NCBI RefSeq assembly: GCF_000513895.2
Contig: NZ_CP165782.1
Coordinates: forward strand, 744,001 to 808,000
Source of the DNA: Ensifer sp. WSM1721
GTDB lineage: Bacteria > Pseudomonadota > Alphaproteobacteria > Rhizobiales > Rhizobiaceae
Direction of reading: 5' to 3'
Length of the DNA stretch: 64,000 bases
Shown here: positions 1,477-64,000 of the stretch, one piece after another
Numbering within the stretch: position 1 is the stretch's first letter
Layout: the number at the start of each line of letters is the position of its first letter
Position numbers and translations under genes: made by a program
Notes under the pieces: generated by a model
Databases searched by the model: none
The model's input: the letters and a program-made list of their open reading frames with translations, nothing else
Told to the model about the DNA's origin: nothing

Positions 1477-1862
1477 TGCCCGCCATGCTTCTGAGCGCCG
1501 CCACAGGCCTGGCGCTGGTGCTCCTCTCTCTCGCATTGTTGATGACGGTATTGCGCATCATTCGCGGGCCGACCCTGCCCGATCGGGTGCTCGGCCTCGA
1601 TATGCTGGTGGCGATCGCGATCGGCCTCATTGCTGTGATCGCGATCAGGACCGGGTTCAACCTCTACATCGATATCGCTATCGCTCTCGGTCTCGTCGGC
1701 TTTCTCGCGACGGTCGCCTTCGCCCGCTTCATCCTCGTGCGCGGCCTCGCGCCGGAGCACGCGCCCCAGGGGGCATCCGCGGCGGCGCCGACAAAGCCAT
1801 CGTCGAAGCAGGTGCGCTCGGGGCAGGCCGGCCGCCGCAAACGCAAGGGGGCGCGCCGATGA
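1473..1862 (+). CDS. phaF: Cation/proton antiporter subunit F (PhaF/MrpF)
   Basis: A 129-residue small membrane subunit with three predicted helices (about residues 8-28, 42-60 and 66-88) and the MrpF/PhaF motif '[17 protein letters not shown]'. The C-terminal 35 residues are an Ala/Lys/Arg-rich tail ending in a basic cluster, longer than the roughly 90-residue Bacillus MrpF but usual for rhizobial PhaF. It overlaps both phaE and phaG by 4 bases, a fully coupled operon. Confidence 0.93.
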
Positions 1863-2218
1863 CGGGGCAAGTCAATAGCGGTGTTGCTGCCATCGTTGCG
1901 TTGATCGTCGTCATCGGCGCATGCTTCTCGCTGCTCGCAGCCCTCGGCCTCATCCGATTTCCGGACCTGTACACGCGCATGCATGCCGCCTCGAAAGCGG
2001 GAACCGTCGGCTCGGGCTTGTTGCTCTTTGCTGCCGGGCTGCATTCGCTCGATCTCGCGATCTTTGTGCGCGCGCTCGCCGGATTTGTTTTCTTCGTGCT
2101 GACGGCGCCGATCTCTGCCCATCTTCTGGCGAAAGCCGCGCATCAGGCGGGCTACAGGATGACGAAACTGTCGGTGATAGATCAGCTTCCGCAAAAGGAA
2201 GAGGCACGGCGTCACTGA
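1859..2218 (+). CDS. phaG: Cation/proton antiporter subunit G (PhaG/MrpG)
   Basis: A 119-residue MrpG/PhaG family membrane protein with three helices and the diagnostic motif '[20 protein letters not shown]' that defines PhaG_MnhG_YufB. The ATG at 1859 overlaps the phaF stop. It is the last gene of the antiporter operon and is followed by a 400-bp gap before mucR on the same strand. A longer in-frame reading from 1430 would run through phaE/phaF and is not supported. Confidence 0.94.
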
Positions 2219-2620
2219 TCGGCAGCATTTCTGATTCTGTATTTCAGGAGAATTTTCGCGCTCACGTCAATTTTAGCACTTTGGAATAAAGTTGCTGCCT
2301 TCGGGCAAAAATTATGTTTGGACTTTTCGTCGATCAGTGTTAATGCAGTAAACGCAAAGTGTCGTTGTGGAATATACTTTGAACTGAAATTCCAGCTTGA
2401 GTTGTGATGCTGTCCGTTGCTTTGAGGTGCCAGCCGCAGCGGTGCCTTGGTGACGGATTTCCCTGTTGCAATTCGAGCCTTGATGTTGCGGCGAAACCAC
2501 GGTCTCCGTCGCGCAGTTAGCGGTCAGTTCCGAGGTGGCAACCGCCGTTCGGCGGCATTTTGCACATCCTCCCCTGAAACGGGTTTCAGGGTTTTTGCTG
2601 GATTCCGATAGGAGAAAAAA
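2219..2620 (+). promoter_or_regulatory. mucR upstream region and leader (402 bp, no gene)
   Basis: This is an AT-richer gap between phaG and mucR with no supportable open frame. It should hold the mucR promoter and, from knowledge of S. meliloti, the site through which MucR represses its own gene. The last 80 bases hold two hairpins in series, described separately. A purine-rich Shine-Dalgarno (AGGAGAAAAAA) at 2610-2620 abuts the mucR ATG. Confidence 0.6.
2542..2597 (+). terminator. Two hairpins in mucR leader; second resembles an intrinsic terminator/attenuator
   Basis: Hairpin 1 is CCGCC-GTTC-GGCGG at 2542-2555, followed by CATTTT. Hairpin 2 is CCTGAAA-CGGG-TTTCAGG at 2573-2590, followed by GTTTTTG at 2591-2597. 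The second ends only 23 bases before the mucR start codon, so if it works as a terminator it would act inside the mucR transcript as an attenuator. Alternatively it ends a short separate transcript. The structure is seen directly; its function is inferred. Confidence 0.5.
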
Positions 2621-3052
2621 ATGACAGAAACTTCGCTCGGTACGAGCAATGAACTCCTGGTTGAGCTTACGGCGGAGATCGTCGCCGCCTATGTAAGCAA
2701 CCATGTGGTTCCCGTTGCCGAGCTTCCGACGCTCATAGCCGACGTTCATTCGGCTCTCAACAACACGACGGCTCCCGCGCCCGTAGTGGTTCCGGTGGAG
2801 AAACCGAAGCCCGCGGTCTCGGTGCGTAAGTCGGTTCAGGACGACCAGATCACCTGCCTCGAATGCGGCGGCACGTTCAAGTCGTTGAAGAGGCACCTGA
2901 TGACCCACCACAACCTCTCGCCGGAAGAGTATCGCGAGAAGTGGGATCTGCCCGCCGACTATCCCATGGTCGCACCGGCCTATGCGGAAGCCCGTTCGCG
3001 TCTTGCCAAGGAAATGGGCCTCGGCCAGCGTCGTAAGCGCCGCGGCAAGTGA
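2621..3052 (+). CDS. mucR: MucR/Ros-family zinc-finger transcriptional regulator
   Basis: A 143-residue protein with the Ros/MucR architecture: an N-terminal oligomerisation region (about residues 10-50), a linker rich in Pro/Val, and a C-terminal zinc finger with Cys79, Cys82, His92 and His96/97 ('[19 protein letters not shown]'), then the '[16 protein letters not shown]' signature. In S. meliloti MucR controls exopolysaccharide choice (EPS II repression, succinoglycan), motility and its own expression, and acts as a nucleoid-like protein on AT-rich promoters. Length and sequence match the S. meliloti protein as far as I can judge from memory. A Shine-Dalgarno lies directly upstream, and a clear terminator follows at 3158-3187. 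Confidence 0.95.
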
Positions 3053-3157
3053 TCCCCGCAGGCTCGACGGCATCGCGCGCGGCGAGCCACGGTCGGCAGG
3101 AATTGTCCACACTCGGATGAACAAGTCTGTGTGGCGGCGAAGCTCGTCCAAGTGAAG

Positions 3158-3187
3158 AAAGGCCGGCTGAATCAGTCCGGCCTTTTC
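3158..3187 (+). terminator. Intrinsic terminator after mucR
   Basis: AAAGGCCGG at 3158-3166 pairs with CCGGCCTTTT at 3177-3186 across a ten-base loop, followed by a T run. It is well placed to end the mucR transcript before the convergent sufE-like gene. Confidence 0.85.
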
Positions 3188-3238
3188 GTCTGCGCTAGAC
3201 GGGACGATCGCTTCATCCCGGCCCGGTTTACGCGGAAA

Positions 3239-3661
3239 TCAGGCCGGCAGGCGGACCTCGGCCTCGCTCTTGATTCGCCGGATCATTGATCTCAGACCGT
3301 TGGCGCGCTGCGACGACAGATGCTCGATCAGGCCGATCTTACCGAAGATGTCGAGAGCGTCGATTCTGGCAATCTCGGATGCACGTTTGCCTGAGAAGAT
3401 GGCAAGGGCGATCGCCACGAGGCCACGAACGATATGAGCGTCCGATTCGCCCTCGAAGGTCAGGGTCGGGTCTTCCGGGTCGCCAGCGGTATGGGTCACG
3501 AGCCAGACCTGGCTCGCGCAACCCTGAACCTTGTTCTCGCTCGTTCGCGAGGCTTCGGGCATTTCCGGTAAGCTCTTGCCTAACTCGATGACGTAGCGGT
3601 AGCGGTCCTCCCATTCGTCGAGGAAGGCGAAGTCATCGATGATCTGGTCAAGTGAAATCAT
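3239..3661 (-). CDS. sufE: SufE-family cysteine desulfurization/Fe-S assembly protein
   Basis: With the start at 3661 ('MISLDQIIDDF') the protein has 140 residues, the normal SufE/CsdE length. It shows the SufE hallmark 'NKVQGCASQVWLV', whose Cys is the sulfur acceptor, then 'GESDAHIVRGLVAIALAIFSGK' and a C-terminal 'SSQRANGLRSMIRRIK'. SufE accepts persulfide sulfur from SufS and passes it to the SufBCD scaffold. It stands alone here, outside a suf operon, as is common in Rhizobiales. A longer frame to 3742 exists, but the upstream 27 residues do not resemble the family. Confidence 0.9.
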   Translation of the reverse strand: MISLDQIIDDFAFLDEWEDRYRYVIELGKSLPEMPEASRTSENKVQGCASQVWLVTHTAGDPEDPTLTFEGESDAHIVRGLVAIALAIFSGKRASEIARIDALDIFGKIGLIEHLSSQRANGLRSMIRRIKSEAEVRLPA

Positions 3662-10084: not shown

Positions 10085-10369
10085 ATGGTAGAAAAGAAAT
10101 TGGCGACGGTTGACGTCGAAGCGGAGACCGAAAAACGGCCACCACCGACCCAAGCCGAACTGGAGATGCAGATTGCCGATCTCAGAGCCGAGATCAGCCG
10201 ACTGACGGAAACGGTCACGGCCATCGGCACCGGTGCCAAGGCGGTCGTGCAGGGGGAGGCGGAACTGATGACCGAGCGCGTGCGAGAGCGCGTTCGCGAA
10301 GATCCGATCTCGACACTGCTGACGGTCGCCGGAGTGTCTTTCCTCTTCGGGTTGCTTGCGAGACGCTAG
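10085..10369 (+). CDS. ElaB/YqjD-like (DUF883-type) membrane-anchored protein
   Basis: ATG 10085 has a strong GGAGGGAG Shine-Dalgarno. The 94-residue protein has a coiled-coil centre ('AELEMQIADLRAEISRLTETV') and a C-terminal membrane anchor ending in 'TLLTVAGVSFLFGLLARR', the layout of ElaB/YqjD proteins, which in E. coli tether ribosomes to the inner membrane in stationary phase. The resemblance is architectural, so the function is inferred. Confidence 0.75.
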   Translation: MVEKKLATVDVEAETEKRPPPTQAELEMQIADLRAEISRLTETVTAIGTGAKAVVQGEAELMTERVRERVREDPISTLLTVAGVSFLFGLLARR

Positions 10370-12170: not shown

Positions 12171-14408
12171 TCAATTGTTTGTCGTGTTTGTCCTGAAGCG
12201 AGCCGCCGTATCCTCGTCCGGCGCTTCGAGCACGGCCACCTTGCCGCCGGTCTTTTCGCGCGCCTTCAGCGGCGGGACGTTCTCGAACGTGTCTTCGATC
12301 TTTTTCAACAGCCGAGTGACCTCGGCGGACAGCGATCGCGGACGCACGAGCGGTGGCAGGGCGTTCTCGTCCGGCTTGGCCGCGACTGCCGGCTGCTCTT
12401 TCGATTTCTCGGGAGGCGGGATTTCGATGCCGGGAATCGGGCGGTGTTCGATGCCTTGCTCGGCATAGTCCATCAGCCGCTTGAAGGTCATGGCAGGCAG
12501 GGAGCCGCCGGTCATCTCGTCGGTGGAGGTGTAGTCGTCGTTGCCGAACCAGACGGCCGTCGTGTAGTCGCCCGTGAAGCCGACGAACCAGGCGTCGCGA
12601 TAGGCTTGTGTCGTCCCCGTCTTGCCGCCCGTGATGACGCCATTGTCGAGGGCTGCCCGCCGCGCGGTGCCGATAACAGGGATCTGCGTCAGGATGCGGT
12701 TCATCGAGGCGACGGCCTGCTCGCTCAACACCCGCTGTGCCGGCGGCGCGTCGCGAGAAAAGTCGTACAGGATGTCGCCGTCGTAGTTGAGAATCTGGCT
12801 GATGCCGTGGCGTCGCGACTGGAAACCGCCCGCGGGGAAGACCGCGTAGGCCGTCGCCTGATCGAGCACGGTGACTTCCGAAGTGCCGAGCGGCATGGTC
12901 TTGTCCGTGCGGATTGGCGTCTCGACACCCATCCGTTTAGCCGTTTGCGCGATGACGTCGGTGCCGAGCTTGTCCTTGGCGAGGCGGACGGGAATCGTGT
13001 TGATCGATCTTGCGAGCGCGTTCATCAGCGTCACCCGGCCCGAATAGCTGCGCCCATAGTTCTGCGGCGACCAGCCGCGCCAGGTGATCGGCGCGTCGAC
13101 GACGACCGTCTCCGGCGTCATGCCTTTTTCCATTGCGGCAGCATAGGTGTAGACCTTGAAGGACGAGCCCGGCTGGCGGAGCGCGCGGGTGGCGCGGTTG
13201 AACTGGCTTTCGCCATAGTCGCGGCCGCCGACCATGGCGCGCACGGCGCCGCCGTTCTCGATCATGACGAGGGCGCCCTGCTTCACCTTGTAGCTTTCGC
13301 CATATTGCCTGAGGCCCGACTCGACCGCTTCTTCAGCCGCCTGCTGCAGCCCCATGTCGATCGTCGTGCGTACGATCAGCGAATGCTGGGCGAAGGGGGC
13401 AGCAATGCGCTGGACCTCTTCGAAGGCCCAGTCGAGGAAGAAGTCCGGCGCCTTCACCTGGGCGCGGTCAATGACGGTCGCCGGGTTGAGGCGGGCGGCG
13501 ATCACCTGGCCCTCGGTCATCAGCCCGCCCTGGACCATGTTGGTCAGCACTTCGTTGGCCCGGGCGCGCGCCGCCGGCAGGTTGACGTGCGGAGCGTAGC
13601 GCGCCGGGGCCTTGAAGAGACCGGCGAGCATGGCGGACTCGGCAAGATTGATATCCGTGATCGCCTTGCCGAAGTAGAACTGCGCGGCGGCCGCCGCCCC
13701 GAAAGTGCCGCCGCCCATATAGGCGCGGTCGAGGTAGAGGCGGAGGGTTTCCTTCTTGGAGAGATTGGATTCGAGCCAGACGGCGAGGAAGGCTTCCTTG
13801 ATCTTGCGCTCGATCGTCCGCTCGTTGGTGAGGAACAAGTTCTTCGCAAGCTGCTGCGTCAGCGTCGAGCCGCCTTGGACCACACCGCCGGCACGAGCGT
13901 TCTCGGTCATCGCGCGCGCGAGGCCGAGGAAGTCTATGCCCCAATGGTCGAAGAACCGCCGATCCTCGGTCGCAAGAACTGCCTTGATGAGATGATCCGG
14001 CAGCTCGTCGATAGGGACCGAATCCTCGTGGATGATACCGCGGTGGCCGATCTCATTGCCGTAGCGGTCAAGGAAGGTGACGGCGAAGTCGCTCTGTGCG
14101 CGCCAGTTGCCCTTGGTCTCCTCGAAGGCCGGCAAGGCCAAGGCGAGCATCAGCACCGAGCCGGCGGTGCCCCAGGTCATGCCCTCGCCGAGCACTTCGA
14201 AAAGCGCCCTCTTCCAGCCGCGCACGCGAAAGCGGCGGAAGAAGATGGTCGTATCCTCCCACCATTCGGCAAGCCGGAACCCGGCGTTCCATACCGTCGA
14301 ATCGATCCAGGAATCGATCCGAAGAAAGATGTGTCGCCTCTTCGGCCGGTTGTCCTCTTTCTTCGGTTCCTGCACGGCTTTCACGTCCCAGAAGGTTTCT
14401 TGCACCAC
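12171..14408 (-). CDS. Class A penicillin-binding protein (bifunctional transglycosylase/transpeptidase)
   Basis: A 745-residue PBP1a-type protein. The cytoplasmic N-terminus is followed by a membrane helix (about residues 75-95). The GT51 glycosyltransferase has 'ATEDRRFFDHWGID' (catalytic Glu148) and 'GGSTLTQQLAKN'. The transpeptidase has Ser415-Ser-Phe-Lys418, Ser468-Ile-Asn470 and Lys596-Thr-Gly-Thr. All three penicillin-binding motifs and both GT motifs are intact. It polymerises lipid II and cross-links the peptides in the periplasm. It lacks the long OB/ODD insert of E. coli PBP1a, so it is nearer the shorter rhizobial homologues. An 811-codon open frame on the opposite strand is a shadow. 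Confidence 0.95.
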   Translation of the reverse strand: MVQETFWDVKAVQEPKKEDNRPKRRHIFLRIDSWIDSTVWNAGFRLAEWWEDTTIFFRRFRVRGWKRALFEVLGEGMTWGTAGSVLMLALALPAFEETKGNWRAQSDFAVTFLDRYGNEIGHRGIIHEDSVPIDELPDHLIKAVLATEDRRFFDHWGIDFLGLARAMTENARAGGVVQGGSTLTQQLAKNLFLTNERTIERKIKEAFLAVWLESNLSKKETLRLYLDRAYMGGGTFGAAAAAQFYFGKAITDINLAESAMLAGLFKAPARYAPHVNLPAARARANEVLTNMVQGGLMTEGQVIAARLNPATVIDRAQVKAPDFFLDWAFEEVQRIAAPFAQHSLIVRTTIDMGLQQAAEEAVESGLRQYGESYKVKQGALVMIENGGAVRAMVGGRDYGESQFNRATRALRQPGSSFKVYTYAAAMEKGMTPETVVVDAPITWRGWSPQNYGRSYSGRVTLMNALARSINTIPVRLAKDKLGTDVIAQTAKRMGVETPIRTDKTMPLGTSEVTVLDQATAYAVFPAGGFQSRRHGISQILNYDGDILYDFSRDAPPAQRVLSEQAVASMNRILTQIPVIGTARRAALDNGVITGGKTGTTQAYRDAWFVGFTGDYTTAVWFGNDDYTSTDEMTGGSLPAMTFKRLMDYAEQGIEHRPIPGIEIPPPEKSKEQPAVAAKPDENALPPLVRPRSLSAEVTRLLKKIEDTFENVPPLKAREKTGGKVAVLEAPDEDTAARFRTNTTNN

Positions 14409-58858: not shown

Positions 58859-58948
58859 GGAGAGGTGGCCGAGTGGTCGAAGGCGCTCCCCTGCTAAGGG
58901 AGTATACCGGAAACGGTATCGAGGGTTCGAATCCCTTCTTCTCCGCCA
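58859..58948 (+). tRNA. tRNA-Ser (anticodon GCT)
   Basis: 90 bases including the encoded CCA. The acceptor stem is GGAGAGG/CTTCTCC with one G-T pair, followed by D arm, anticodon stem CTCCC-CTGCTAA-GGGAG (anticodon GCT, reads AGC/AGU), a long variable arm TATACCGG-AAAC-GGTATC typical of tRNA-Ser, and T arm GAGGG-TTCGAAT-CCCTT. A head module of a mobile element starts 51 bp downstream, so the 3' end is a candidate attachment site. Confidence 0.96.
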
Positions 58949-58999
58949 TAGACCTTGATTTTATTGCATTTTTTGACGTTTTTCGCCGTTTGCCATAAC

Positions 59000-59206
59000 T
59001 CAGGCCGCCGCTTGCCTCCGAAGCCATGCAGCCTCATTGCGTCGCGCTCGCGGCCCGGAAGGCGTGGCTGCCACTACCTGCCGTACAACGCGGCTCCCGA
59101 ATCGGAAATCGATCACGAGATGTTTGTTTGCGCGGACCAGTTCCCAACTGTCCGCACCGGCTTCTTCGGCAATGGATTTGATTTCGCGCGCAACTGCGGG
59201 CTTCAT
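59000..59206 (-). CDS. HicA-like small protein, last gene of the head module
   Basis: ATG 59206 with GGGAGG six bases upstream gives 68 residues. The core 'SWELVRANKHLVIDFRFGSR' then 'VVRQVVAATPSGPRARRNEA' and 'AWLRRQAAA' follows the pattern of the double-stranded-RNA-binding-fold HicA-like proteins seen in many phages, with one conserved His ('NKHLV'). Whether it is a toxin is unknown; no HicB-like partner is visible. It is the gene nearest the tRNA. Confidence 0.65.
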   Translation of the reverse strand: MKPAVAREIKSIAEEAGADSWELVRANKHLVIDFRFGSRVVRQVVAATPSGPRARRNEAAWLRRQAAA

Positions 59207-59290
59207 AGCGGGCCTCCCTTTTTTGTTTTTGTTATTGGGGCGGCGTCCTATTGCACGAAAATTATCGATCAGTCAAGCCAAGGTTGCAGG

Positions 59291-59307
59291 CCGCACTAGG
59301 CGGCCCG
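59291..59307 (-). terminator. Hairpin between adaptor and HicA-like genes
   Basis: GGCCGC at 59291-59296 region pairing with GCGGCC at 59302-59307 around CTAGT-type loop in the 104-bp gap. No T run; possible processing site or partial terminator. Confidence 0.35.
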
Positions 59308-59310
59308 CAG

Positions 59311-59655
59311 TTATGTCGCAACGCCAGCCTCGACCAGCACGTTGACGAACGCTCGCCGCTCGTCGGGCTCGACCGATCGAATGTTGTAGACCACGCCGGA
59401 ACGGGCATTCACGGCCCGCCAGGTGGTGTCGACGGTGGCGAAGTCCGGTTGCCATCGCATGATGAGCGCGAGCGTCTGCTTGCCTGCCAGACGGCCCGCC
59501 ATGACGGTTTCCGTACCTCTCAGGATTTGCACGCGGGCCGCAGCGGCGAAGACAGTCTGGAATGGGCCGATATACCCACCATTACCGTACCCGTCATCTT
59601 GCCACTCTCGTTGCTGCATCTCGATTACTTCCCGAAGGTCGCCGCCGCCCGTCAT
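59311..59655 (-). CDS. Phage head-tail adaptor/joining protein
   Basis: 114 residues resembling the Phage_H_T_join (head closure) family: 'GGYIGPFQTVFAAAARVQIL', 'GTETVMAGRLAGKQTLALIM', 'TTWRAVNARSGVVYNIRSVE' and 'PDERRAFVNVLVEAGVA', the last two being the family hallmark. Its ATG overlaps the stop of the portal gene (ATGA), so translation is coupled. Confidence 0.9.
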   Translation of the reverse strand: MTGGGDLREVIEMQQREWQDDGYGNGGYIGPFQTVFAAAARVQILRGTETVMAGRLAGKQTLALIMRWQPDFATVDTTWRAVNARSGVVYNIRSVEPDERRAFVNVLVEAGVAT

Positions 59656-60860
59656 GCTGCATCCTCGATCTTGCTGCGATTGTCGTTCGCGCCGCCTAGC
59701 TGGCCGTAGTTCAACGGCTGGACGTACGTGTCACCTTCCGGCCCGATGCTGCCGAGATTCTCGAATGCACGGATGGTGTTTACATTAAGCCATCCGCCCT
59801 CGCGGCCTACCCTGTAGGCGTTGTATCGCGTCACGAGGTCGCCTCGAAGCAATCCTGACATGTCATGCTCAATCATGAATGTCTTGCGTGCCTCCGGCGA
59901 CAGCAGCGCCGAGTTAAGCGATTGCTCGATGCGACGGGCCATCGGTGCCAGGCAGCGAATAACCAACGCGCGACTCTCCGCCTCAGCGTTGCTGTACGTG
60001 CTGTTGTCGGTAATCCCGACGATTGAGGGCGGCACGCCGAAGACGCGGGCAATGTCGAGATTGCTCAGCTTGCGGCTTTCCAAGAATTCCGAGTCCTTCG
60101 CGGAAAATTGGAACGTCTCAAACTTCGCGCCGCCGTCAAGGATCATCACTTCATTCGCCTTCAGCGAGCCGATAAACCGCTCCTTGAACTTGGCGATGAC
60201 GTTTTCCTTACCAGTAGCGGCAAGCTTGTCAGGGAACACGAGCGCGCCAGCGGGCCGGAAGGCGTTCTCCGCCGCGGCGCCGGCTTGATCCTGTTGAGCA
60301 ACCGCAAGGCCGAACGTTGACGCTGCGATTTGAATTGGGCTCATGCCAAGGATGCCGTCAGCGGTCCTGTAGCGCAGGTGGAGCACTTCATCCTGAAGCA
60401 GCGTTTCCGTACTGCCATCAGGCAAGGCATGCTTATAGCGCAGGCGTCCAGACTTCAGGACTTCGACCGTAACCGAGCCAGCCACGAGCGGGTGAAGCGC
60501 CGTGACCTGGCCGCGGCCGTTCCGTTCGATCTTGGCGTAGCCGTTGCCATGGATCAGCAAGCTTGCGGCCAACCATTCGCGACCTTCGAAAGCCGTAAGC
60601 CGATCGTTGAAGTTGTCGTGCAGAACGGCGTACAGCGGATGGTCCTTGGCAGCTTGCCGGTCGTCGTTCGCGGCTTCGCGATAGACCTTCAGCGGCATGG
60701 CGGCTAGGTTCTCGGCAATGGTCTGCACGGCTCGGTGCGCAACAGCTAGGCCGCTTGCCTTCTCTACGTCCGCTCGAGCCGTCCACCGTGCACCAAGGAA
60801 CTCTCCCAGGTACGGGTCGGACGTGGCAATGCGCTTCTCTGTCTTAGGAAAGGGCCACAT
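59652..60860 (-). CDS. HK97-family phage portal protein
   Basis: 402 residues. Family features are 'SGLAVAHRAVQTIAENLAAM', 'PLYAVLHDNFNDRLTAFEGR', 'LLIHGNGYAKIERNGRGQV', 'DEVLHLRYRTADGILGMSPI' and 'RVFGVPPSIVGITDNSTYSN'. Portals form the dodecameric DNA gate of the capsid. It overlaps the protease gene by 17 bases and the adaptor by 4. Confidence 0.97.
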   Translation of the reverse strand: MWPFPKTEKRIATSDPYLGEFLGARWTARADVEKASGLAVAHRAVQTIAENLAAMPLKVYREAANDDRQAAKDHPLYAVLHDNFNDRLTAFEGREWLAASLLIHGNGYAKIERNGRGQVTALHPLVAGSVTVEVLKSGRLRYKHALPDGSTETLLQDEVLHLRYRTADGILGMSPIQIAASTFGLAVAQQDQAGAAAENAFRPAGALVFPDKLAATGKENVIAKFKERFIGSLKANEVMILDGGAKFETFQFSAKDSEFLESRKLSNLDIARVFGVPPSIVGITDNSTYSNAEAESRALVIRCLAPMARRIEQSLNSALLSPEARKTFMIEHDMSGLLRGDLVTRYNAYRVGREGGWLNVNTIRAFENLGSIGPEGDTYVQPLNYGQLGGANDNRSKIEDAA

Positions 60861-61380
60861 GGGCAGCCTCCAATTCTAGAACAGCGAGCCGTCGGTCGGC
60901 GTCTGTGCGCTGCTGGCGAGCTCGTGCCTGAATGGACGTGCCGCCATAAGCCGGGAAGGACTGCACGACGCTGATTTCGTGAAGAACAACGTTCCGCAGC
61001 GTGCGCTTGTCGCCTCGCCACTCGTCTCCACCTTCCGGCACGGTGAAGCCAAAGGACATTCCGCCAAGGTCGGAACGTGTCGCCATCGCGAGGATATCGT
61101 TACCAAGGGTGGTCGGCGGAACGTCGATTTCGAACGCGAGACCGCGGGCGTCTTCCGAAAGGCGGAGCGTGCCGCTTTTCGTCCTTGCCAGTACCTTGCC
61201 GTTGTCGTGGTCGACCAATGCAAGAATGTCGCCGTTGGAGCGCAGGCTGGCCGCGAACGCGCCGGGGGCGATCGTCTCGTTAAAGTCGAGGATCCGCGTT
61301 TCATTGTGGAAGGTCGCAGCATACCCCGACAGCTTGCGGCCTTCGGCGCGAACTTCCGTCGCGATGCGAGTTTCGATCAT
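60844..61380 (-). CDS. HK97-family prohead protease
   Basis: 178 residues beginning 'MIETRIATEVRAEGRKLSGY' then 'AATFHNETRILDFNETIAPG', with the catalytic His in 'LALVDHDNGKVLARTKSGTL' and Ser in 'SDLGGMSFGFTVPEGGDEW'. The triad is completed by a Glu/Asp in the second half. It matures the HK97-type capsid. Its ATG overlaps the connector stop. Confidence 0.95.
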   Translation of the reverse strand: MIETRIATEVRAEGRKLSGYAATFHNETRILDFNETIAPGAFAASLRSNGDILALVDHDNGKVLARTKSGTLRLSEDARGLAFEIDVPPTTLGNDILAMATRSDLGGMSFGFTVPEGGDEWRGDKRTLRNVVLHEISVVQSFPAYGGTSIQARARQQRTDADRRLAVLELEAAHVALS

Positions 61381-61655
61381 AGAGATTGCGTCCTGTAAGG
61401 CTGGAGGAGGGCGTCGACGCCAAATGCAATGGCGCGCGGCGGCTCGGTCGCGGCGGCTTCGCGAGCGCCGTACCAGTGGCTGACGAGGAGAAGGACGGCG
61501 TGCTTAATGGGCGCGGGAACCGGGGCGGCAAGCGCCACCCCGATCTCCGACACATACCCTTCGGCCGCCTCAATGAGCGAAGTCACATAAGCGTCGTCAG
61601 CCGTGAAACTGATTCGCAAATGCGCCTTCGCCTCAGCGAGACTAACCTCAGACAA
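61377..61655 (-). CDS. Phage gp6-like head-tail connector
   Basis: TTG at 61655, directly after the capsid-gene stop (TAATTG), gives 92 residues: 'SEVSLAEAKAHLRISFTADD', 'AYVTSLIEAAEGYVSEIGVA' and 'IKHAVLLLVSHWYGAREAA'. This is the standard Phage_connect_1/gp6 signature (four-helix connector). In ordinary phages it follows the capsid gene, as it does here. Confidence 0.92.
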   Translation of the reverse strand: MSEVSLAEAKAHLRISFTADDAYVTSLIEAAEGYVSEIGVALAAPVPAPIKHAVLLLVSHWYGAREAAATEPPRAIAFGVDALLQPYRTQSL

Positions 61656-62819
61656 TTAGATAGCCTTCCAGGCGAAGGCTTCGTTGTGGCGGATCGCGAT
61701 GTCCGCGTCGAGGAACGCGTGAAGCTTCACGCCGCCCTTGCTGGCAACGTCCGAGTGGTACGGGTTGAGCAGGACATCGACGCCGGACCAGTAGCCAATG
61801 ATCAGGTCCGACCAGTGACCGTAGATAAGCGGGTGCTCGCCAGCGATGGCTGCAACCTGATTGGTTACCGTGACCGGCTTGCCGTGGAAGACTTCAGAGG
61901 CCGGAATGTTGCGGCCTTCCAGGTCCTTCAGCTTGCGAACAACGCCCATGAGCGTGGCGTTCGTAAGGAAGGCGCCGGTGCCCATGACGTCATCGACTTC
62001 CAGATCGGCAATCAGATCAGCGGCAATGTCGGAGACGGCCGTCGAGACGGTTGCGCTTTCCGTAATGGCCGTGAGGATGCCAGTCGGCTGGTTAGATGTG
62101 CCGGTGCCTGCGATAGCGGCCTTGTCGAGGGCCTGTGCAAGCACGAAGCCGAGGTCGGCGCGAAGCACGCTTTCAAGCGCAACAGCGTTCTGCAGCATAA
62201 GGCGGCGGGAAAGCTGCATTTCGCCGGAAACCGTCTTCGGACCCATCGAAATCTTGCCGAAGGTCGAAGCCGATTCCGTGGTGTTGCCGTCTTCAGCAAC
62301 CCAGTAAGCGGTCGGTCCACCCGTCAGCTTCGGCAGGTCGAGGAAGCCAGTCAGGCCAGAGAGCACGGTTGCGCCCATGCCCTGCACGGCGAGCGTCGGG
62401 CGAAGCCGATCAATCAAGCCGCCAAGCTGGGTTGCGACCGCGTAGCCGCCTGCCGTATTGGTGCCTACCGTCTGATCGCGGGTTTCAAGCAGAACCGAAG
62501 TCGGGATCATGACGCCGCGGGATTCGCGACCCTTGCTCAGTTCGTCGTGCTGTTCCCGTTCAAGGCCGGTCAGCGAACCGTTGAGAGCTTCCGTGAAGGC
62601 CTTGGCGATCGAGTAGCTGCGAAGCTCTTTGTTGAGCGAAGCATCCGGTGCGGCGTCGGCCTGGCGCTCGAATTCGGCCAGCGTAACGGCGCGCTTGATG
62701 TCTTTGTCGAGCGCGCGGACTTCAGCTTCGAGCTTGTCGAACTGTTCCGGGTTGCCGGTTGCGGCGCGCATTTCGGTAATCTTTGCGGCGCGGGTTTCCT
62801 GAAGGTGTGCAAGATTCAT
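61656..62819 (-). CDS. HK97-family phage major capsid protein
   Basis: ATG 62819 ('MNLAHLQETRAAKITEMRA', AAAGG seven bases upstream) gives 387 residues; ATG 62837 is an alternative. A Delta/scaffold-like coiled coil (about 1-95, 'EVRALDKDIKRAVTLAEFER') is followed by the mature capsid part with 'FLDLPKLTGGPTAYWVAEDG' and 'SASTFGKISMGPKTVSGEMQ', 'GTGTSNQPTGILT', and the C-terminal 'GYWSGVDVLLNPYHSDVAS'. All are HK97-fold capsid hallmarks. A terminator hairpin lies only 20-odd bases before its start codon. Confidence 0.97.
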   Translation of the reverse strand: MNLAHLQETRAAKITEMRAATGNPEQFDKLEAEVRALDKDIKRAVTLAEFERQADAAPDASLNKELRSYSIAKAFTEALNGSLTGLEREQHDELSKGRESRGVMIPTSVLLETRDQTVGTNTAGGYAVATQLGGLIDRLRPTLAVQGMGATVLSGLTGFLDLPKLTGGPTAYWVAEDGNTTESASTFGKISMGPKTVSGEMQLSRRLMLQNAVALESVLRADLGFVLAQALDKAAIAGTGTSNQPTGILTAITESATVSTAVSDIAADLIADLEVDDVMGTGAFLTNATLMGVVRKLKDLEGRNIPASEVFHGKPVTVTNQVAAIAGEHPLIYGHWSDLIIGYWSGVDVLLNPYHSDVASKGGVKLHAFLDADIAIRHNEAFAWKAI

Positions 62820-62838
62820 TTTATGCCTTTCATGCATG

Positions 62839-62860
62839 AAAAAGGCCGCTCTCGGCGGCC
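62839..62860 (-). terminator. Intrinsic terminator directly before the capsid gene
   Basis: On the minus strand GGCCGC-CGAGA-GCGGCC is followed by TTTTT (plus-strand positions 62839-62860). The T run ends two bases before the alternative capsid start (62837) and about 20 before the chosen one, so no room remains for an independent promoter. Capsid expression through it would require read-through. Confidence 0.75.
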
Positions 62861-62869
62861 GGTGGTAGT

Positions 62870-62886
62870 GCGGGCCATGGTCCCGC
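62870..62886 (-). other. Second hairpin between HTH gene and capsid gene
   Basis: GCGGG at 62870-62874 and CCCGC at 62882-62886 around CCATGGT. It lies just upstream of the terminator and could form an alternative fold or be an antiterminator or binding element. Confidence 0.5.
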
Positions 62887-62890
62887 TTGC

Positions 62891-63322
62891 TTATGCGGCG
62901 CGCTGCCGAAGCTCTGCGCAGGCCGCGTTTATCCCGGCGACCAACTGGCCGATGGGAATTAGAATGAGTGACTTATCGACTTGAAGCCGCGGTACGTCTC
63001 GGTCGGAGATGAACCGGCCTGCCTTGGGACTGATACGGCCCGCCTCGATGACGAAGATTGCGTCTGCGGCTGGTGGCTCCTGTAGATGCTCAAAGGCGCA
63101 GGCTATAGCCGTCAGCAACGGCATGCCGCCGCGCTCCAATTCGTGGGCCAGCCGCAGCACGGCAATGTCACGCGGCGAGAACCATCGCCTATGTCCGCGC
63201 TTTTCCGAGAACAATTCGGCAGGTTGACGGATGCACCACATATCCAGTGTGGAACGGCGTGTGCCGGCAAGGGTTGCGGCCTCGCCAACGGAATAGGCGC
63301 GCTCGCGCCAAGGGTCGGCCAT
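62891..63322 (-). CDS. MerR-like helix-turn-helix protein of phage type
   Basis: ATG 63322 with AAAGGAG seven bases upstream gives 143 residues. A MerR/excisionase-like N-terminal HTH ('YSVGEAATLAGTRRSTLDMW' followed by 'GHRRWFSPRDIAVLRLAHEL') is followed by a helical region ('MPLLTAIACAFEHLQEPPAA') and a C-terminal 'DRDVPRLQVDKSLILIPIGQ' part. It resembles the HTH proteins preceding phage or satellite capsid genes. It may control the downstream head operon, or act as AlpA-type activator; this is inference. Confidence 0.82.
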   Translation of the reverse strand: MADPWRERAYSVGEAATLAGTRRSTLDMWCIRQPAELFSEKRGHRRWFSPRDIAVLRLAHELERGGMPLLTAIACAFEHLQEPPAADAIFVIEAGRISPKAGRFISDRDVPRLQVDKSLILIPIGQLVAGINAACAELRQRAA

Positions 63323-63363
63323 GGCCGGTCTCCTTTCGTCAGTTGTTAGATTTTCGAATGGGT

Positions 63364-63403
63364 AAAAAAGGGGGAGGCGGCCAGGATCACCCTGCCGCCT
63401 CCC
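63364..63403 (-). terminator. Intrinsic terminator upstream of the MerR-like gene
   Basis: On the minus strand GGGAGGCGGC (63394-63403) pairs perfectly with GCCGCCTCCC (63372-63381) across a 12-base loop and is followed by CC and TTTTTT (63364-63369). It ends 42 bases before the MerR-like start codon. It may close an upstream gene outside the window or serve as an attenuator. Confidence 0.85.
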
Positions 63404-63566
63404 GATTTGCTCGTCGGGAACCACCCCGACTAAGACTCTCATCGCCAGGTCCCACCCAGGCAATTGCCGTGCGCTAATCGCCATGTCCTTTGACGGATGG
63501 GCGGCAACGATTCGCGCTTTAGGATTGGCCAGGCCCCGAATGGAGTGCCGCCCGAACCGGAACTGT

Positions 63567-63609
63567 CTTCCCACTTCTTACAAACTTGGAGCGGTTTGAG
63601 TATATACTC
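63567..63609 (+). repeat. Repeat A1 with palindrome GAGTATATACTC
   Basis: The 34 bases from 63567 match 63830-63863 with one mismatch; the final part is the perfect 12-base palindrome at 63598-63609. Confidence 0.85.
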
Positions 63610-63688
63610 ACCCCTCGGGGACTTGAGTGCGCGTGGGAGACGGTCGCAATCGACTGTATCTCTCACTTATACCCATCCGCAGCGCAAT

Positions 63689-63702
63689 CAGGTTATAACC
63701 TG
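63689..63702. promoter_or_regulatory. Perfect 14-base palindrome CAGGTTATAACCTG
   Basis: It lies between repeats A1 and B1; a likely binding site for a dimeric repressor or similar protein of the element. Confidence 0.5.
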
Positions 63703-63709
63703 CCCGTCA

Positions 63710-63735
63710 CTGTACTCTCTCCGAGACTGCGAAAA
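63710..63735 (+). repeat. Repeat B1 (B2 at 63890-63915)
   Basis: CTGTACTCTCTCCGAGA followed by GCG and AAA; the two copies differ at three of 26 positions. Confidence 0.75.
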
Positions 63736-63829
63736 GTGCCACGTAGACCTCTACACAATAGTACGCACCCACGCGGCACGAAAAGGCACACTCCCCACTT
63801 ATAGCAAACTTCGGGCCGATCGAAGCATG

Positions 63830-63872
63830 CTTCCCACTTCCTACAAACTTGGAGCGGTTTGAGTGTACACTC
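63830..63872 (+). repeat. Repeat A2 with palindrome GAGTGTACACTC
   Basis: Second copy of repeat A. Its palindrome (63861-63872) differs from that of A1 at two symmetric positions, keeping perfect dyad symmetry. A partial third copy starts at 63793 (CCCCACTTATAGCAAACTT). Confidence 0.85.
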
Positions 63873-64000
63873 GCGCATGCACCCCTTCGCTGTACTCTCT
63901 CCGAGAACGCGGAAAGGGACGCTTCACTGATACACACCATGGGGAAGGGCAAAAGTGACACCCCTCTACTTATAAGGGGAGCGAACCTGCGTTTAGGTCA

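Follow-up and report, generated by a model that had tools for sequence, protein, structure and literature searches.

What kind of element carries a complete set of phage head genes and no tail gene, set against a tRNA gene on a rhizobial chromosome? The question is raised by a stretch of 64,000 nucleotides of Ensifer sp. WSM1721 (G000:C1:744001-808000, in a genome of 6.33 Mb; hereafter the window), on whose minus strand HK97-type head genes run up to tRNA-Ser(GCT). These genes are part of an integrated island of 11.1 kb that runs past the right end of the window, with about 6.1 kb lying beyond it in an adjoining stretch named L002 (window coordinate = L002 coordinate + 56000). The island belongs to a family of satellites resembling the capsid-forming phage-inducible chromosomal islands (cf-PICIs), and is not a decayed prophage. 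What is new is the presence of putative helper-type late-control sites of two kinds, A and B, before the capsid operon of a satellite. From its sequence the element is very probably a head-forming satellite. We also consider it likely that it is integrated and apparently intact, with its own HK97-type head and packaging functions, with tails and lysis provided by a helper phage, and with head genes controlled through late sites; that the A and B sites work as helper late-control sites is, on balance, probable.

Integration and gene content of the island

Integration at the 3' end of tRNA-Ser(GCT), with the island's own integrase and AlpA-type excision factor, is shown by the anatomy of the element and by an empty site. 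The tRNA gene has been kept intact because its 3' end is duplicated, the core CTTCTTCTCCGCCAT recurring once within the 36 kb searched, at 11.1 kb from the tRNA copy. In the sister species G300 (L035) the right-hand flank follows directly after the tRNA, as an empty site: bases 1-1500 of this locus match the left flank (86%), bases 1486-3329 match the right flank (90%), and the two matches overlap by exactly 15 bp. The base-by-base reading as an empty site concerns L035 only; the flanking porin-side DNA is present in 32/33 genomes of the genus, and for 22 of the 29 relatives' loci examined the fetched sequence includes a tRNA-Ser(GCT).

Two further observations concern this site. In three relatives of the genus (L056, L059, and L062) the tRNA-end core stands before the porin gene, yet the 1.5 kb fetched there contain no tRNA. 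This points to the presence of other islands at this tRNA-Ser(GCT). A 14-bp match to the tRNA T-loop (GAGGGTTCGAATCC) is found near the 5' end of the integrase gene (L002, about 13930-13950).

Read on the minus strand from the far end toward the tRNA, the island carries genes for an integrase, AlpA, a 101-aa protein, an AAA_25 protein, an HNH protein, the large terminase (TerL), and a 127-aa protein; after these come the control region and a MerR-like gene, and then the capsid, connector, protease, portal, closure, and 68-aa protein genes (Table 1). The AAA_25 protein matches a DNA polymerase/primase PHROG (1.4e-19) and is not a standard primase. Among the island open reading frames (ORFs) submitted, no Pfam or PHROGs match to tail or lysis families was obtained.

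A cf-PICI-like satellite had already been proposed for this locus in a sequence-only reading of the window. The minus-strand HK97-type head set described there is complete and intact at that place, and the cluster does end 51 bp from tRNA-Ser(GCT) with no tail, lysis, or terminase gene in between; to its gene list can be added the MerR-like gene before the capsid. Of the genes sought to the right of position 64000, the integrase, AlpA, the large terminase, and, for the primase, an AAA helicase/primase-like gene are present together with an HNH gene, and no convincing small terminase (TerS) was found. The duplicate of the tRNA 3' end proposed as attR exists as the 15-bp copy, the empty site predicted in other genomes is clean in the sister species, and no tail, tape-measure, or lysis gene, the sign of an ordinary prophage in that reading, occurs further right among the ORFs of the element. 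With an integrase, AlpA, an AAA helicase/primase-like gene, HNH, TerL, an att duplicate, and an empty site, and with no tails, "cf-PICI-like" is therefore a good description of a resemblance, short of strict membership.

Proposed late-control sites before the head operon

The gap between the 127-aa gene and the MerR-like gene, referred to here as the control region, contains repeats. When it was compared by blastn with 50,697 phage records, the best matches were the Sinorhizobium phage NV1.1.1 (E 7e-5), the Rhizobium phage RHph_TM3_3_14B (3e-3), and the Sinorhizobium phage AP-16-3 (1e-2), and the remaining 8 of the 11 records stood at E 5. In NV1.1.1 and RHph_TM3_3_14B the matching stretch, site A, begins immediately past the stop codon of a gene of 308 aa (phrog_36072) and is followed by genes for HNH, small terminase, large terminase, portal, protease, capsid, and tail. 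In AP-16-3, site B comes after a 326-aa gene and before an HNH gene, and no similarity to the 308-aa gene is detectable over the length of this 326-aa gene. In the phages the NV1.1.1-type gene goes with site A and an unrelated gene goes with site B. Among 2.9 million viral contigs, a 24-mer site-A pattern was found in three stretches, each time immediately behind a homologue of the 308-aa gene; the site-B pattern was also found in three, namely one phage, in which a gene 99% identical to that of AP-16-3 precedes HNH, TerS, and TerL, and the metagenomic satellites L149 and L151.

The link between gene and site is general in phages. Homologues of the 308-aa gene define 20 prophage loci (18/394 genomes of the family and 2/33 of the genus, the latter at 41-44% identity), and in 16 of these the motif TGA[AG]GGG lies at most 50 bp after the stop codon (offset 32-35 in 13 of them), versus 1.2% of 4000 random 50-mers from the same loci. 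The bases upstream of this motif differ between loci, and the best site-A score of the locus falls at +5 to +7 from the stop in 7/20. Lambda Q and its promoter offer a model for a late regulator and its target, and by analogy we infer that the phage gene-plus-site unit is of this kind. Another candidate for the late regulator would be a phage sigma factor, such as the one encoded by RHph, or the sigma-like gene p107 of phage 16-3.

Twenty satellites were scanned with a matrix built from four phage A sites and, for B, with the single AP-16-3 site. Scores of at least 18 (A) and at least 20 (B) are confined to the gap and to the coding strand, and weaker matches outside the gap reach up to 13.2 (A) and 18.9 (B). 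Strong sites are found in L002 (two A and one B), L149 (three A and three B), L151 (two A and two B), L122 (one A), and L094 (one A). A comparison that needs no matrix, of 24 phage leaders (48 bp) with 17 satellite gaps, gave 27/408 pairs scoring over 17, which was the highest value among 2448 shuffled comparisons; these pairs belong to L002 (8), L149 (8), L151 (5), L124 (2), L090 (2), and L122 (2). None of 408 pairs exceeded this value with antisense leaders (maximum 16) or in the rest of the islands (155 kb), and random 48-mers of the same phage loci did so in 2/2040, both from one draw overlapping the L119 leader.

These sites might instead be remnants of recombination with phage leaders, or targets of a host factor used by both phage and satellite. 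Satellites do take helper DNA, as seen in L106 and L092, which hold a gene 62 and 59% identical, respectively, to that of the major tail protein of RHph_TM3_3_14B, and the lack of a consensus promoter (see below) would agree with such an origin. However, the sites are repeated at the stronger scores in L002, L149, and L151, they all lie within the gap and point in the coding direction, and their matches end short of the hairpin's second arm in the phages; moreover, with a host factor it would be hard to account for two types of site, each linked to a different and unrelated phage gene. We therefore regard both versions as unlikely.

Several results weigh against a satellite governed by helper late sites. 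A search of L002:7300-8100 for sigma-70 consensus promoters gave none (0.4 expected), and therefore the promoter reading rests on position and conservation; this lack of consensus fits an activator-dependent or alternative-sigma promoter. No leader match above the null was obtained in 11/17 satellites, which means that the array is not a general feature. Because L149 and L151 came from the search for site B, their B sites are ascertained, as opposed to L002, L122, L124, and L090, which were found by other means. Searches of the host genome turned up neither presumed late-regulator gene, and hence no resident helper; the B-type gene was found in 0/33 genomes of the genus by a search without positive control. 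The structure of the presumed regulator (the 326-aa homologue) is poorly predicted, with a mean pLDDT of 56.6 and values near 85 confined to the C-terminal helices, and gives no identification of the protein. Finally, no small terminase was found: none in the island is convincing (a diverged TerS may have escaped), the phrog_4581 "terminase small subunit" label falls on the HNH protein within its HNH region, the TerS of NV1.1.1 matches phage loci only (32 loci searched), and those of 16-3 and RHph match no satellite protein.

Other elements of the control region have been noted. A strong hairpin and a terminator-like stem lie at its start, and the hairpin with a fixed 84-bp spacing to the next motif is common to L002, L089, and L090. 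The 43-nt direct repeats D1, with palindromic GAGTRTAYACTC, stand between the late sites and are a possible operator. D1 was rejected as a helper site: its 18-mer occurs in 17 viral contigs, of which only L139 is a satellite, and most of the others share one coding-looking flank. The motif m2 was also discarded, being a terminator-like stem whose three viral-contig matches are two satellites and the unrelated L154. A third site type in L002, resembling the L171 leader, scored 17, equal to the null maximum, and is not claimed. One genome, G071 (L090 and L173), holds a satellite plus a distant (30%) homologue of the A-type gene, and the site after this gene is unlike that of the satellite.

Related islands in the Rhizobiaceae

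A deleted prophage, that is, an HK97-like phage in decay after the loss of tail, lysis, and regulatory regions, would account for head genes of ordinary HK97 type, and tRNA-Ser(GCU) is known as a prophage site in S. meliloti (PMC12429752, available text). This origin is nevertheless very improbable in the light of the relatives of the island. A capsid relative at E<=1e-30 was found in 18/394 Rhizobiaceae genomes, own included; compared here were the 17 other capsid loci together with L111 of Rhizobium wenxiniae and three more TerL loci from the genus. The tRNA or tmRNA end recurs on the far side in 11 loci, own included, and 10 of them span 10.1-11.2 kb, so that the same tail-less gene set lies between end repeats at this distance in nine other genomes, at different tRNA or tmRNA genes. 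Capsid relatives in other Rhizobiaceae islands are 47-79% identical, whereas all 233 matching records among the 50,697 phage records fall below 60% (27-37% among the matches listed); in plasmid records no capsid match was found at E<=1e-40. No internal stop occurs in any predicted island gene, and dN/dS was 0.06-0.24 in 24/24 pairwise gene comparisons (Nei-Gojobori) among L002, L089, L090, and L149, with dS near or above saturation in several pairs and with the AAA, closure, and three small proteins outside the set. The compared genes are under purifying selection.

It is also very improbable that the island is a gene transfer agent or a small autonomous phage, which a full head set with terminase could recall, given that the element has no tail, lysis, or adsorption gene, that its integrase, AlpA, and att repeats would be needless for a gene transfer agent, and that its capsid is the single PF05065 protein of the whole genome.

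Within the satellite family the integrase stands either at the end far from the tRNA (L002, L106, and L111) or beside the tRNA (L089-L091 and L099-L102; integrases read by eye). The closest relative seen is L149 (integrase 92%, portal 92%, and MerR 87% identical), and the MerR-like protein is 86-87% identical in L149 and L151. A second satellite of the same genus lies at tRNA-Ser(TGA) in G321:C1 (L106; integrase 73% identical). Some loci are less complete: L102 is reduced to a remnant of 4.3 kb in which the capsid is truncated, the end-repeat match of L100 (tmRNA) is limited to 13 bp, no tRNA lies near L093-L098, and L099 has head genes and no TerL match. L103-L105, sharing the capsid alone (30-33%), and L107 and L108, sharing TerL and portal alone, were not counted as satellites. 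Across the class, a TerL relative at E<=1e-120 was found in 4/385 genomes, own included; the other three come from three further families, and two of these three loci show a satellite-type gene order.

Side observations on these islands include an odd one: the tail-less satellites L106 and L092 carry one tail protein, a tail-tube gene (PF06199) between TerL and capsid (L106:11037-11489 and L092:8624-9070). In addition, homologues of the 68-aa protein (72-77% identical) are placed between TerL and capsid in L089 and L122. Free circular molecules were considered when 17 among the best 120 of 713 capsid relatives were found on contigs of 10,991-11,576 bp. This was rejected: no terminal direct repeat is present in 9/9 contigs examined (satellite family and one outgroup), and L149 (11,226 bp) carries a complete tRNA at one end and attR close to the opposite one. 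Breaks in assembly at island ends are thus the more likely source of this contig size.

Table 1. Features of the island and of its integration site, in window coordinates unless L002 is given.
Feature	Position	Strand	Remarks
tRNA-Ser(GCT)	58859..58948	+	Intact, integration target; ARAGORN
attL core CTTCTTCTCCGCCAT	58935..58949	+	15 bp, tRNA 3' end
68-aa protein	59000..59206	-	Weak phrog_2053; last ORF, ends 51 bp from tRNA-Ser(GCT)
Head completion/closure protein	59311..59655	-	PF05521
Portal	59652..60860	-	PF04860, E 8e-95
Prohead protease	60844..61380	-	PF04586
gp6-like head-tail connector	61377..61655	-	PF05135, TIGR01560
HK97-type major capsid protein	61656..62837	-	PF05065, E 1e-38
MerR-like HTH protein, 143 aa	62891..63322 (L002:6891-7322)	-	From ATG with ribosome-binding site; precedes capsid gene
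D1 copy 1, 43-nt direct repeat	63567..63609	-	Holds GAGTATATACTC
Site B	63607..63637	-	Matches late-operon leader of Sinorhizobium phage AP-16-3
Site A copy 2	63703..63736	-	Matches late-operon leader of NV1.1.1 and RHph_TM3_3_14B
D1 copy 2, 43-nt direct repeat	63830..63872	-	Palindrome GAGTGTACACTC
Site A copy 1	63881..63916	-	Matches late-operon leader of NV1.1.1 and RHph_TM3_3_14B
Terminator-like stem-loop with T tail	63961..63979	-	Start of control region
127-aa protein	L002:8068-8451	-	
Large terminase	L002:8458-10083	-	PF20441 and PF03354; related to HK97 TerL (PDB 6z6d, E 1e-119)
HNH protein	L002:10074-10469	-	
AAA_25 helicase/primase-like protein, 589 aa	L002:10469-12238	-	TTG start; best PHROG DNA polymerase/primase
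101-aa protein	L002:12201-12506	-	
AlpA-type regulator	L002:12470-12745	-	PF05930, E 1.8e-8; next to integrase
Tyrosine integrase	L002:12822-13991	-	
attR copy of CTTCTTCTCCGCCAT	L002:14077-14091 (extended coordinate 70077-70091)		86 bp beyond integrase start

Packaging and proposed mode of action

In the record of phage 16-3 the cohesive end is placed at 60186-60195 (CCGGCGTCGG), just before terS. The A and B sites were considered as cos and rejected: the 16-3 cohesive end lies downstream of them, before terS, the satellites carry two or more A/B sites, and those of the phages stand upstream of the HNH gene and are therefore not cos. A pattern formed after inspecting the sequences, CCG-N-YG and then TTAGTT, has a single occurrence in each of 17/18 satellites (L111 misses it), on the coding strand and 50-89 bp before TerL, versus 6 in 6.47 Mb of shuffled DNA; in L002 this block is at 10104-10133, with the putative cos core CCGGCGCGGG. 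The CCGGCG core is common to the helper group and the TTAGTT part is not, and a matrix of five phage cos cores gave matches 64-97 bp upstream of TerL in 5/18 satellites (scores 10.8-15.3). Against a cos-like role stand the following results: outside the defining set the pattern is present in 1/3 loci (L180, and not L178 or L179); the same matrix gives no match there for L002 and has its top score, 18.1, elsewhere, antisense, in L149; and the alignment of the 16-3 cos region with the satellites shows HNH-gene or scattered similarity alone. The term cos-like refers, then, to a conserved block read from the alignment.

On these bases a mode of action can be proposed. Replication would depend on the AAA helicase/primase-like protein, and packaging, by the island's own HNH protein and TerL, would start at the cos-like block just upstream of the TerL gene, because this block is conserved and the cos of 16-3 has been mapped. 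When a helper enters its late phase, the helper late regulator would also switch on the head operon of the satellite, and by carrying the site types of two unrelated regulators one satellite may respond to helpers of several lineages. The closure protein would be the point at which helper tails are joined; its identity to the head-closure proteins of RHph_TM3_3_14B, NV1.1.1, and 16-3 is 36-39% (the capsid, 27%); the protease, with 44-51% identity to the helper group, is closer than the closure protein. In a wider form, for which we see the chances as even, TerS-less head-forming satellites of rhizobia would read their helpers through tandem late-control sites copied from, or matching those of, several phage lineages with unrelated late regulators; any such helper entering the cell would release the satellite, and the composition of the array (A, B, or mixed) would be a record of helper range.

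Comparison with known systems

The late genes of P4 answer the late activator of P2 through P2-like late promoters. The island would be similar in having late genes keyed to the late activator of a helper; it differs in that P4 is without its own capsid gene and in that two unrelated site types stand here together. A small terminase is part of the cf-PICI gene set, whereas none was found here, and, unlike in cf-PICIs, the control region here holds putative helper-type late sites. The similarities with cf-PICIs, such as EcCIEDL933, comprise an integrated island with an integrase, AlpA-type regulator, putative replication gene, HNH, and large terminase, with capsid, portal, protease, and connectors and no tails, in the manner of a satellite taking only tails (features described in the available text of PMC13230959, PMC10803314, and PMC11389934; cf-PICIs also appear in that of PMC12846349). 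The island is smaller (11.1 kb) than the cf-PICI average of 14 kb given in the accessible part of PMC10803314. The cf-PISP, capsid-forming satellite-plasmids of Vibrio, also have head genes without tails, HNH, and terminases (PMC13230959, same text), but they are episomal with parA/repA, whereas this island is integrated and its capsid has no match in plasmid records at E<=1e-40.

The candidate helpers 16-3, AP-16-3, NV1.1.1, and RHph_TM3_3_14B, a group of temperate siphophages, have in common with the island an A or B site, the cos core, the HNH-terminase order, and head-closure homologues; they differ in size (59-64 kb), in having tails, lysis, and small terminase, and in their capsids, only about 27% identical. 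The available portions of PMC10460002, PMC11476347, and PMC12429752 describe rhizobial prophages and do not mention such satellites. No paper on such satellites in rhizobia was found in a search that left subscription literature largely outside, so absence from print does not follow.

Biological significance

If this reading is true, satellites that form heads and steal tails would have an established place in nitrogen-fixing and other Rhizobiaceae. Sequence alone would also have named a candidate helper group, to which the classical S. meliloti phage 16-3 belongs. The missing small terminase raises the question of how the satellite terminase recognises its DNA. For a group of phages that has been studied for decades, the presumed regulators beside the sites are candidates for the control of late expression. 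Finally, the helper is unknown for most satellites found in genomes, and late-control sites in common with phages would provide a way to predict helper-satellite pairs.

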